Part shown: one piece after another, positions 11,053 through 37,443 of the stretch
Numbering within the stretch: position 1 is the stretch's first letter
How the letters are laid out: each line of letters begins with the position of its first letter
Assembly: GCA_001783145.1 (NCBI GenBank)
Contig: MFQT01000016.1
Location: 67,796-105,238, forward strand
Source of the DNA: Candidatus Magasanikbacteria bacterium RIFOXYB2_FULL_38_10
GTDB taxonomy: Bacteria; Patescibacteriota; Patescibacteriia; Magasanikbacterales; UBA10003
DNA length: 37,443 bases
Direction: 5' to 3'
Translations under genes and position numbers: made by a program
Notes under the pieces: model-generated
Database searches by the model: none
Seen by the model: only the letters and a program-made list of their open reading frames with translations
What the model was told of the DNA's origin: nothing

Positions 11053-11182
11053 ACAACCCCCGGCACTTGCCTACTTTTGCAGGACCGGGTTGGGTCCAAC
11101 TATCATCAGCGCCAGAGTGCTTAACTTCCGTGTTCGGAATGAGAACGGGTGTGACCACTCCGCTTAAAGCACCGAGGGTTGT
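11053..11182 (-). rRNA. rrf: 5S ribosomal RNA
   Basis: The minus strand contains the conserved 5S core with ATTCCGAACACGGAAGTTAAG and GGAGTGGTCACACCCG. The ends form the terminal helix (ACAACCCTCGGTGCTT with AAGTGCCGGGGGTTGT), which extends beyond normal length by a further 7 bp and probably serves as a maturation stem. It lies about 70 nt after the 23S end. Ends are approximate. Confidence 0.92.
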
Positions 11183-12186: not shown

Positions 12187-12328
12187 AAAGTAGTGTGAGA
12201 TTTACCAGTCTCATAAATAATTTCTCCAAATTTATTTATAAGTTGCTGCACAGAGTTTCCAGCATTTAGCTAGATTTATAGACAGCACGGTTATTAGCTA
12301 ATTTAAGCTAAATTTTTCTACTGTCTCG

Positions 12329-12363
<35 letters not shown>

Positions 12364-12394
12364 TGGCGAACAGCCAAACCATTGGGAGCTTCTT

Positions 12395-12435
<41 letters not shown>

Positions 12436-13786
12436 AGGTCGTCGATATGGACTCTTGGACCTGATCAGCCTGTTATCCCCGGAGTAGCTTTTATTCGTTG
12501 AGCTTCGACCATCCTATATTGGATCGTCGGATCACTATGTTCCCCTTTCGGGACTGCGCGTCTTGTAGGACTTGCAGTAAAGCAAGCTTGTGCCATTACA
12601 CGTCCAGCTCCGTTTCCATTGGAGCTAAGCTTACCTTTGTAAACGCCTCCGTTACATTTTAGGAGGCCACCGCCCCAGTCAAACTACCCACCAGATACTG
12701 TCCCTCCCCTAGGATAACTAAGGGTGGTTAGAATTAAAAATACCTAAGGGTGGTGTCTCATCGGCGCACCATATTGCTATGGCGCTCCCACCTACACTGA
12801 ACATAGAAATTTTTAATCCAATACCAAGTTGTAGTAAAGCTTCACGGGGTCTTTTCGTCTAACCACGGGTAGGAGGCATCTTCACCTCCCTTGCAATTTC
12901 GCCGAGTCCCTCGTTGAGAGAGTTCTCAAGTCGTTATGCCATTCGTGCGCGTCGTAACTCACACGACAAGGTATTTCGCTACCTTAGGACGATTATAGTT
13001 ATCGCCGGCGTTCATCAGCGCTTCAGTTCAGAGCTGCCCCCGTATTGCTACGGGATGACCCCTCCCCTTAACGTTCTGACACTGGCCAGGCATCAGCCCC
13101 TATACATTGCCTTGCGGCTTAGCAGAGACCTGTGTTTTTGTTAAACAGTCGCTTGAGATCGTTTGCTGCGGCTCCAACAAATTGGAGCAATGCTTATTCC
13201 GAAGTTACGCATGCTTTTTTGCAGAGTTCCTTAACGAGGGTTCTCTCGTACACCTTGGCACACTTACGCCCACCCACCTGTGTCGGTTTACGGTACGGAT
13301 TTCATATTCTTAACGCCTGGCACCTTTTCTCGACACAACTTTGACCCAAATTGAATCCACCTTGCGGCTTCATCTCTACCTTGCGGTACGCGTATAACCA
13401 AAACGCGCTTGCATCGCGGTCATGTGTCAGTGCATAGCAAAAATATGAAAGTGGCCGAATATTAACGGCCTCTTCCATCGGCTACCCTGCCTCGGAAGGC
13501 AGACTCACCTTAGGATCGACTAACCCTGGGACGATTTGCGTTGCCCAGGAAACCTTGGGTTTACGGTGCTCTGGGTTTTCACCAGAGTTTGTGCTACTTA
13601 TGCCAACATTCTCTCTTCCTGACGCTCCACCGGCCCTCACGGGTCCGACTTCACTGCGACAGGAATGCTCCTCTACCAATCCTCATTAATAAATTAATGA
13701 AAATTCCCTATCTTCGGTACTACGTTTAGCCCCGGTACATTTTCAGTGCAGAACAACTTGACCAGTGAGCTGTTACGCTTTCTTTA

Positions 13787-13824
<38 letters not shown>

Positions 13825-14402
13825 AGTCGTTCCACCGCTTTTTACACTTAACGTAGATTTAGGGACCTTAGATGAGGGTCTAGGCTGTTCCCTTTTTGTC
13901 CACTGGAGCTTAGCCCCCAGAGACTGACTCCTGGAATGTTAATTCTTGGCCTTCGGAGTTTGGTTGAAACAAGGCGGATTGCTCCGCCACGTCTCATTCA
14001 GTGCTCTACAACCAAGAGGAACTTCCAAGGCTAGCCCTAAAGCTATTTCGAGGAGAACCAGCTATCACCGAATTCGATTAGAATTTCTCTCCTAACCACA
14101 ACTCATCCCCTAGTGTTGCACAGCTAGTGGGTTCGGTCCTCCCCCTGTCTTTCGACAGGGTTCAACCTGGTCATGGTTTGATCATCCGGCTTCGGGTCTT
14201 ATATGTGCGACAAACGCGCTATTAACGCTCGCTTTCACTGCGCCTATGGACCGTAAGTCCTTAAGCAAGCCGCACACAATAAACTCGTTGGCTCATTCTT
14301 CAATAGGAATGCCGTGACTCTGACACACTTGCGTGTATCTAGAGCTCCGACTCTTTGTAAGCGTATGGTTTCAGATACTATTTCATCGCCCTCACCGGGC
14401 TG

Positions 14403-14439
<37 letters not shown>

Positions 14440-15044
14440 ATCATTAGAAGTATTTAGTCTTGGGCCAATAGTCGGCCCGGATTCTTACCAGATTTCACGA
14501 GTCTGGTAGTACTTGTGAACAACCAAAGCAGAGTAACAATTTATTTCACATACGGGATTATCACCCTCTATGATTCTTCATTCCAGAAGATTCTGTTATA
14601 AATTGTTCTTTTTTCTCTACCTGTTTTTATAGGAAAACAATTTGATTGCCACGCAACACCTTATAGAGTACAGCCCTATAGCCCCAAACAATTCACGTAA
14701 TTTCAATTTGCATCAAAACTCGCCTAACCGTTTGACTCATATGAGGTTTAGACTTCTCCCCTTTCGCTCGCCACTACTTAGGGAATATATGACCTATTTC
14801 TTTTCCACTGGCTACTGAGATGTTTCACTTCGCCAGGTACACCCCGCACCTTGCGGTGCGGTCTCTCGGTTCAACGCCAAGAGGGGTTGCCCCATTCAGA
14901 GATCTCCGGATCAAAGGTTGCTTGCCACCTCCCCGAAGCTTATCGCAGGCTGCTACGTCTTTCATCGTCTTCTAATGTCAAGGCATCCACACATACGCTC
15001 TTACGCTCTTCTCCATCTTTATGGAGATTTTTTATCTTTATTAA

Positions 15045-25049: not shown

Positions 25050-25964
25050 TTAAAGAACTGCCAGAACGCGGAAAGCGATGCTGTCGTTGTGGCTGTTGTG
25101 CCAGTTGTCGTCAACATCTGCCAGTCCACCGTCCTCACGGCTGCCCACAACCACACGATTGTCGAAGTCGTAAAGATTCTCAGTCCACTCCCAGGAACTG
25201 GTAGAGCCAAAATCAGGGAGGTTTTCTTTACGGTTGGCGTTGAGCCAGAGGAAGAGATTACCCAGGAAGTTCCACTCTTCTGCCGTAGGCAGACGGGTGG
25301 AGTGTTTGGGAAGGCCGGTGATCTTGGCGATCTTAGTCAGAAAACCATCTTCGTTGTATAAATCATCCCAACTTACGGCGAAACGCTTAACCAACTTTAG
25401 AGCCTGAGCCAGGGTGTCATTAGTATAACCAACTGGGTCATCCCAGCTAGGCTTGGGGATGGTCTCTATTACCACCCAACGGCCAAGCAAAGGCTTGCTC
25501 TCAATGCTAGAAACGGTCAGAAGCTTGCCCCAATCCGGCTTGATGAAGCTTTCAGGGTACTCAGCTTCCGTGATAGCTGGGATATAAAACAGGCGCAAAC
25601 CATACTTCTTCAAAGATTTTTTCTGTCTAGAAGTAAGAGCAGGGGGCAGAGGGACCTCGCACTGAATGCCCATGGTGAAGTAGACGCCTTGCATCCAATA
25701 ACATAGAGCCTGTCTAAAATCAGAACTACTTATTCTTCCCATCGCACTATAAATATCTTCCATATGGGAGGAATTTCCTAAAACTTCCGCCGTACCTAAA
25801 AGCTCCATTGCCTGACTTACCAGGTATCTTTTTGACTCACGCCATAAAGCAGGATTTCGGAGGAATTCCCTTAAATCCTGAGCAAATTGCTCGGGGTCTT
25901 GTCCTCGATTTAACCTCACACTCACTTCTTCCATCAAGGCCAGCACCTCTTGTGCACTCAGCAT
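25050..25964 (-). CDS. CLec/FGE-like protein, candidate DGR variable target
   Basis: About 304 residues from the ATG at 25964, which has GGAGGGG in front; a TTG at 25982 would give six more but lies within the ribosome site. Residues 1-150 are not recognised. The C-terminal part looks like the formylglycine-generating-enzyme/C-type-lectin fold: RLPTAEEWNFLGNLF, then STSSWEWTENLY, and a final SIAFRVLAVL in the place of the usual IGFR end. Between WTENLY and IAFR the residues are mostly D, N, H and S, coded almost only by GAC, AAC, CAC and AGC. This is what adenine-specific mutagenesis of AAC codons gives. Such proteins are surface or ligand-binding receptors in DGR systems. No reverse transcriptase or template repeat is in the window. 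Confidence 0.68.
   Translation of the reverse strand: MLSAQEVLALMEEVSVRLNRGQDPEQFAQDLREFLRNPALWRESKRYLVSQAMELLGTAEVLGNSSHMEDIYSAMGRISSSDFRQALCYWMQGVYFTMGIQCEVPLPPALTSRQKKSLKKYGLRLFYIPAITEAEYPESFIKPDWGKLLTVSSIESKPLLGRWVVIETIPKPSWDDPVGYTNDTLAQALKLVKRFAVSWDDLYNEDGFLTKIAKITGLPKHSTRLPTAEEWNFLGNLFLWLNANRKENLPDFGSTSSWEWTENLYDFDNRVVVGSREDGGLADVDDNWHNSHNDSIAFRVLAVL
25077..25172 (-). repeat. Candidate DGR variable region (VR)
   Basis: The last codons of the gene. In one run of 13 codons (25080-25118) ten are GAC, AAC, CAC or AGC and one is GAT, interrupted only by GTT and TGG. All could come from AAC/AAT template codons by changes at A alone. A template repeat should lie elsewhere in the genome. Confidence 0.55.
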
Positions 25965-26160
25965 AACACCCCCCTCCGCCAACAGCCCACAACTTGCCGC
26001 AACTCTGCTTTCTTAAAGCAAAACCTTGGTAAGTTCTTTAGCTTAATTGGCAAAGAACAACCTGTCTACCGGACAGGCACGGTATTGCCACTTGGCAATT
26101 TAGTTAACCTTACTAAAAAACTCTGAAAAAATCAATAATCACCACAAAACACTACTTTCC
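25965..26160 (-). promoter_or_regulatory. Hairpin-rich leader upstream of the DGR-like target gene
   Basis: Gene-free stretch. Read on the minus strand it holds four stems in a row: ATTGCCA/TGGCAAT with a 2-nt loop, CCTGTC/GACAGG, GTTCTTT/AAAGAAC and TGCTTT/AAAGCA. A possible promoter is TTGATT (26135-26130), 17 nt, TAAGGT. It is either a structured 5' leader or a small RNA; no known riboswitch is recognised. Confidence 0.4.
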
Positions 26161-36137: not shown

Positions 36138-37443
36138 TCAGTTCTCCAGGAACTTGAACGTGGTGCGCCGGTTCTTGGCGCGACAATCCTCGGACGCGTT
36201 GGTCTCGCAACCCACCACCGGCTTGTCGGGGCCGTTGCCCACGATGATGAAGCGGTTGGGGTCCAGACCCAGCTTGACGACCAGGTAGTTGGCGCCGGAA
36301 CGTGCGCGATCATACGACAGCTTCTGGTTCACCTCCCGCGAACCCTTGCTGTCCGTGTTGCCCTCGATCAGGATGCGCGTTTTTCCGAACTCCTTGGAAC
36401 GGTTGATGAAGAACGCATCGATGGCCTCCTTGCCCCCGTCCGTCAAGTCGGCGGAGTTGAAGGCGAAGTTGACCGTGAGGTCCAGGGACGAGAACGCCGG
36501 AGCCTTGGCGTCTTCGGGCTTGGGAGGCGCGAAGCGCGGGGTCTCCTCGGGGGCGTTCTCCGGCGGACCGGCGAGCTCCGTGCACGACGCCACGAAGGAC
36601 GTGTCCACGATGTTGCGCCAGAGCGGGATGTTGTCGGGCGCCAGGCCGATCTGGTTGAAGAGGCGGTGCATCTTGTTGTACACCTCCTCGCCGCGCACGG
36701 CACCGGGCGACGTCTTGAGGCCGAAGAACAGCAGGTTGTCACCGTAGGTGGTGATGCGCGCGTTCTCGATCATGCGAGTGGCCGAGGCCACGTCGTTCAG
36801 GTTGAAACCCGCGCTGATGATCTGCGCCGCCTGCGTCTTGGCCGTCGGCACGGCATTGATCTCGCCCGCCGCCTTGAGCCATCCGCAAGTAAACTTCCTG
36901 AAGGCCGCGTTCTTCGCGACAAGCACATCCTGCTTGGCCAGGAAGACGTCGGCGATGGCCTTGTTGGCCTTCTTGGTGTTGACCAGCACCTTGGTGCCGA
37001 GCACGTTCTTCACGCAGTCCTCGTCATCCGGGGCCCAGACCATTGCCGCATCCGCGGCGCCGGCCTTGTAGCGGCTGGCCGCCTCGATGCCGTTGTCCAC
37101 GCCCACCACCTGGATGTCCGTGTAGGAAAGGTTGCAGGTGGCCAAGGTCAGCAGGAGGAGGGTGTGGCTCGGCGTACCGATGGCCACCGCCACCTTCTTG
37201 CCCTTGAGGTCGCAGACCGAGTTGATCCCGGCCTTCACCACCATGGCGTCGCCGCCCTCGCTCCAGTCGGTCTGGATGAACTGCTTGGCACCAAGCGCCG
37301 CGAGCTCCGTGATCTCCGTCGGCAGCGAGTCGGTGGTGGCCAGGCCAAGCACGTCGCACTCGCCAGCCTTCCACGCGTCGCGCATGGCCTTGAAGTCGTC
37401 GATGACCTTGAAGCCCACGATCACGCCGTCCTTGTAAAAGCGG
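36138..37443 (-). CDS. ABC substrate-binding protein fused to OmpA-like domain (partial)
   Basis: The frame is open to the right edge (reading RFYKDG before the first internal GTG at 37424), so the N-terminus and any signal peptide are outside. The first 260 visible residues resemble NMT1/SsuA-type periplasmic binding proteins (LKGKKVAVAIGTPSHTLL, AADAAMVWAPDDEDCVKN). A Pro/Glu-rich linker leads into an OmpA_C domain of about 120 residues: NFAFNSADL, IEGNTDSKGSREVNQKL, SYDRARSGANYL and a final KNRRTTF. The Asp in NTDSKG and the Arg in YDRAR are the peptidoglycan-contact residues of the family. Extra cysteines (VGCE and DCRAK) may form a disulfide. The fusion would fix the receptor to the wall. 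G+C is very high compared with the left part of the window. Confidence 0.85.
   Translation of the reverse strand, partial: RFYKDGVIVGFKVIDDFKAMRDAWKAGECDVLGLATTDSLPTEITELAALGAKQFIQTDWSEGGDAMVVKAGINSVCDLKGKKVAVAIGTPSHTLLLLTLATCNLSYTDIQVVGVDNGIEAASRYKAGAADAAMVWAPDDEDCVKNVLGTKVLVNTKKANKAIADVFLAKQDVLVAKNAAFRKFTCGWLKAAGEINAVPTAKTQAAQIISAGFNLNDVASATRMIENARITTYGDNLLFFGLKTSPGAVRGEEVYNKMHRLFNQIGLAPDNIPLWRNIVDTSFVASCTELAGPPENAPEETPRFAPPKPEDAKAPAFSSLDLTVNFAFNSADLTDGGKEAIDAFFINRSKEFGKTRILIEGNTDSKGSREVNQKLSYDRARSGANYLVVKLGLDPNRFIIVGNGPDKPVVGCETNASEDCRAKNRRTTFKFLEN

Follow-up and report, generated by a model that had tools for sequence, protein, structure and literature searches.

The C-terminal end of a gene for a 310-aa protein raises the question of whether it is the variable region (VR) of a diversity-generating retroelement (DGR) and, if so, whether it is still being rewritten in its host. 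The gene, referred to here as the target-type gene, lies in a window of 37,443 nucleotides (C16:67796-105238), the whole stretch of DNA that was analysed, in a genome of 854 kb and 20 contigs. The protein carries no Pfam family and, when searched alone, it matched nothing among genome contigs, viral contigs, phages and PDB sequences. Its C-terminal end is WEWTENLYDFDNRVVVGSREDGGLADVDDNWHNSHNDSIAFRVLAVL, and a 13-codon run within it reads GAT GTT GAC GAC AAC TGG CAC AAC AGC CAC AAC GAC AGC. The sequence-only reading had counted ten GAC, AAC, CAC or AGC codons and one GAT in this run, and the count was reproduced exactly; the WEWTENLY and IAFR blocks said to flank it were found at residues 264-271 and 302-305. 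The run is far beyond chance, and nothing else in the gene or the window is as dense in AAY-derivable codons: no 13-codon stretch of the gene that is clear of the run holds more than 4 such codons, the other genes of the window hold at most 5 per 13 codons, and none of 20,000 codon shuffles of the gene equalled the value of the run. Of the D/N/H codons, 10 of 12 in the VR have C in third position, compared with 10 of 26 elsewhere in the gene (Fisher p 0.012). Coordinates are collected in Table 1.

Table 1. Features of the target-type gene and of the DGR loci in its host genome
Feature	Coordinates	Strand	Remarks
Target-type gene	25050..25982	minus	310 aa; TTG start at 25982 or ATG at 25964
C-terminal domain	25053..25670	minus	residues 105-310; pLDDT mostly >90
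VR	25050..25175	minus	residues 270 to stop; extent follows the 126-bp template/VR pair of the relative L110
Hypervariable core	25074..25163	minus	residues 274-303
13-codon run	25080..25118	minus	codons/residues 289-301
Conserved 3' framework IAFRVLAVL	25053..25079	minus	TTC invariant in 12/12 relatives
Hairpin and T-run after stop codon	24999..25028	minus	CCCGCC...GGCGGG, then six T
C11 DGR locus (L001)			template-like repeat, bAvd (PF22296, E 3.3e-11), 192-aa RT fragment (PF00078)
C4 DGR locus (L034)			second template-like repeat, bAvd (PF22296), RT fragment of about 130 aa
Simple-sequence tracts in host genome	L001:2027-2038 (C11); L034:1129-1138 (C4)		

Several other genes were observed in the window. 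A LAGLIDADG endonuclease gene (PF00961; 11656-12168, minus strand) lies between the 23S (12278-15014) and 5S (11058-11176) rRNA genes. An NMT1-like and OmpA fusion gene (36138-37424), with 64% GC and 92% GC3, differs in composition from the rest of the window and stands beside ABC transporter genes. An NDP-hexose 2,3-dehydratase family gene (PF03559) occupies 2195-2986.

AlphaFold2 predicted a confident domain (mean pLDDT 85), at the C-terminal end of which the VR clearly lies. Foldseek returned weak matches, nearly all of them to C-type-lectin folds of the FGE/sulfoxide-synthase type, with TvpA (2y3c), a DGR protein, among them; the best E of 0.011 and TM scores of 0.25-0.33 support the fold class only and no close relationship. 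The CLec/FGE-fold label given earlier remains a plausible candidate by these weak matches. By the Foldseek search, the target domain would share its general fold class with TvpA and the formylglycine-generating enzymes; the scores are weak, there is no Pfam match, and a catalytic function is not implied.

Within the VR, half or more of the homologous templates have an AAY codon opposite each of residues 281, 284, 291, 292, 293, 297, 299 and 301, and in the target-type gene these eight core columns read AGC GAC GAC GAC AAC AGC AAC AGC. At the template-AAY columns, every codon of the gene is at most one adenine change from AAC, and the gene aligns gap-free to six templates from the wider set of DGR pairs that share its VR type. 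The 3' framework occupies the position expected for a putative IMH. The GC-stem hairpin noted earlier just after the stop codon is real (-13.4 kcal/mol, z -0.76); it is not among the listings of a consensus terminator scan. Its form is that of an intrinsic terminator, and it was rejected as a special DGR element.

Of 381 genomes in the class, 21 had a match to the VR-domain HMM. Members of the target-type gene's full-length family occur in ten genomes, its own included, and further members in named records, mostly of Candidatus Uhrbacteria; the distribution of the family across the class (Patescibacteria) is patchy. In three relatives homologous over the domain, namely L110, L116 and L117 (= L074), a template repeat (TR) lies downstream of the VR at a distance of about 420-450 bp, and the mismatches fall at TR adenines in 10 of 12, 15 of 16 and 14 of 15 cases, respectively (39/43 together). 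An ungapped adenine-weighted scan of relatives found TR/VR pairs, and the ten wider DGR pairs of the same VR type have 139 of 145 mismatches at TR adenines. L110 has a best-segment identity of 55% to the target-type protein, and its TR encodes GGLADVNNDWRDNRNDNISFRVLAVL-stop, as compared with GGLADVDDNWHNSHNDSIAFRVLAVL-stop in the target-type gene; adenine enrichment of the gene against this template is modest because the sequences have diverged. No TR was detected near the other family members; the contigs of some (L113, L118) end near the VR, and hence the absence of a TR is not proved for each member.

Compared base by base with each of ten distant templates, the target-type gene shows no significant adenine enrichment (p at least 0.18), as their divergence leads one to expect, and a column test over 13 members was used in place of such comparisons. 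In these members, all TR-less as detected and with the target-type gene included, column variability tracks the adenine count of the three family templates (entropy against adenine count, Spearman 0.81, p 1.4e-10, 41 columns; p values are nominal, as the sequences are related). In a codon alignment of 12 members, differences at codon positions 1/2/3 amount to 0.73/0.58/0.41 in the AAY columns, 0.10/0.08/0.50 in the framework and 0.44/0.37/0.61 in the rest of the domain. Change in the template-AAY columns therefore falls mostly at positions 1 and 2, the opposite of what the framework and the remaining domain show. Compared with other variable columns, those of the VR have fewer third-position changes (p 8e-5) and more third-position pyrimidines (p 2.3e-6). 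On this comparison of columns, the VR of the target-type gene is a DGR variable region by descent. The proposal of a DGR-type VR on a CLec/FGE-like scaffold is upheld by the column match and by the adenine-specific flanking templates of homologues, in which the codons at these sites are clearly variable and not conserved.

The template itself was sought in the host genome. Neither blastn with the VR nor the VR-domain HMM found a fitting template there, and an adenine-tolerant 45-base pattern (at most 3 mismatches) matched only the target-type gene itself. A cognate TR differing at adenines, present in three family members, is thus lacking for this gene in the assembled genome. As noted earlier, neither a reverse transcriptase (RT) nor a template is present in the window; the same genome does hold two DGR loci, each with a template, a bAvd gene and a truncated RT (Table 1). 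Both RTs end before GxPIGN and YADD, the motifs carrying catalysis in complete relatives, so that the genome contains two RT fragments and no intact RT with the catalytic motif; the bAvd frame at C4 is also broken as assembled. The RT fragment at L001:1432-2010 adjoins a signal peptidase gene, and that at L034:about 1153-1551 adjoins the gene for ribosomal protein S12.

The C4 template (L034:636-744) differs from a VR on another contig, C19 (L105:1501-1610), at 12 positions over 109 bp, all 12 at template adenines. The C19 VR ends a 525-aa gene that is distinct from the target-type gene. This adenine-only pair points to a DGR that acted recently in the host lineage and of which template and target now lie on different contigs. 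Remote targeting does occur in the host genome, but for the C19 gene and not for the target-type gene. The suggestion that a remote element acting in trans serves the VR was not borne out, given the misfit by blastn and adenine-tolerant pattern and the truncation of both RTs. The absence of a template from the genome had been named as evidence against a DGR, and such an absence does hold for the genome as assembled.

The reading that we prefer, with a probability of about 0.7, is that the gene encodes a binding protein whose VR is an orphan, most likely frozen and evolving as an ordinary gene. The C-terminal loop of its C-type-lectin/FGE-like domain would be the DGR variable region, and the ancestral loop would have been rewritten by mutagenic retrohoming, in which template-repeat RNA was copied by an Avd-dependent RT with errors at adenines and the resulting cDNA replaced the VR. 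The VR would now remain at its last variant; it is read as an orphan, and probably frozen, because no fitting template was found and the RTs are truncated. We infer that the target-type gene itself was rewritten in the past, that its VR is inactive at present and that its protein binds a ligand. Against this reading stands the fact that, its own template lacking, adenine-specific change is not directly demonstrable for the gene. Furthermore, the clean C4/C19 pair implies a recently working RT, which fits poorly with long-dead machinery.

An unlikely alternative, though the strongest of them, is that the VR is still rewritten, with a template and an intact RT hidden in assembly gaps or coming and going in strains or mobile elements. 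The genome is a draft with both DGR loci near contig ends, so that a third locus could be missing; the C4/C19 pair speaks for recent activity, and the DGRs of relatives do have templates that fit such targets. A contig from the IMG/VR viral collection (L120:6001-8741) likewise holds a related target in an intact cassette with a TR, a bAvd-like gene and an RT of 365 aa, where 14 of 14 TR mismatches fall at adenines. However, the host genome is rated 100% complete, its three template searches were negative, and most relatives are likewise without a detected fitting template. G091, a genome of two contigs, carries two genes of the family and gave no match to RVT_1, and neither did G138. The RT-adjacent templates of nine genomes were rejected as donors for the orphan VRs of the family, none fitting except the local one of G430. 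At L020:1483-2997 (G082), a target of the same VR type adjoins bAvd and RT genes, and the scan found no template there.

It is very improbable that the protein is simply an ordinary one of FGE/CLec fold, whose polar D/N/S/H loop has at no time been a target of a DGR. Loops are often rich in D, N and S, and no template for the gene was found, but close homologues have adenine-specific TR/VR pairs, and variability is concentrated in the template-adenine columns, where the third codon position varies less than usual. That the C11 or C4 template serves the gene can be dismissed: the two repeats are of template type and stand beside bAvd genes, but neither aligns with the VR by blastn or an adenine-tolerant ungapped scan, and that of C4 fits the C19 gene.

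A CPR-restricted DGR clade 2 has been described in Patescibacteria/CPR (Roux et al. 2021, PMC8144416). The cassettes of these bacteria, with a C-terminal CLec-type VR target, an adenine-specific TR, bAvd and RT, are matched in the relatives studied here, and their targets, like this family, are without recognisable N-terminal domains. The target-type gene differs from them in having neither a fitting template nor an intact RT, and most targets seen in its family stand alone. Orphan VRs as such are not new: partial DGRs with a target gene, VR and cis elements and without an RT were reported in Nanoarchaeota, as fossils or remotely diversified (PMC4372165). The target-type gene resembles these in being a VR gene without an RT; unlike them, a single family here recurs in template-less form, as detected, across several genomes, and three of its members keep an adjacent TR. 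With respect to the BPP-1 system (mtd/avd/TR/brt), in which 18 of 22 TR/VR1 mismatches fall at A, tblastn shows homology between brt and the RT of a relative (E 4e-42), whereas bAvd is divergent to RT and TR in the patescibacterial loci.

In 33 of 38 distinct RT-bearing loci, the stretch scanned has a poly-G or (GA)n tract on the RT strand, placed either at the start of bAvd or ahead of the core motif of the RT. No such tract occurs in six phage RT loci, that of BPP-1 among them. Of 30 G/C runs of at least 8, 29 lie in two intervals (80 and 120 bp, with 24 and 5 runs) that were set after the data had been seen, and one lies in the remainder of 138 kb; on the RT strand, every one of the 29 is a run of G. 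The first interval is the start of the divergent bAvd gene, and for 13 of the 14 tract-bearing bAvd genes there is a tract length, no more than two units off, that puts an upstream ATG in frame; as assembled, only 4 are in frame, tract lengths being those of the assemblies. The bAvd gene of contig C11 is in frame with its tract at C12; that of contig C4, with a tract of C10, is out of frame, and a C11 tract would open it. The second interval precedes GxPIGN, which is out of frame in L100, L101, L110 and L116. We lean towards the view that patescibacterial DGRs, including both host loci, are phase-variable, the frame of the slippage-prone tract switching adenine hypermutation on and off and leaving targets long frozen. 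Full-text literature searches, the coverage of which misses key papers, returned no report of phase-variable DGRs.

Testing variability against the adenines of the templates of relatives makes the DGR signature recognisable in a target that lacks a template, and the present results indicate that, in Patescibacteria, DGR targets frequently persist beyond their template or lie apart from it. If phase variation is confirmed, orphan VRs with clear adenine signatures would be accounted for by targets that stay frozen over long spans or once the writer is lost. If the tracts switch bAvd or RT, such regulation of a programmed mutator could be tested directly by measuring the length of the tracts together with the diversity of VRs across the same metagenomes.
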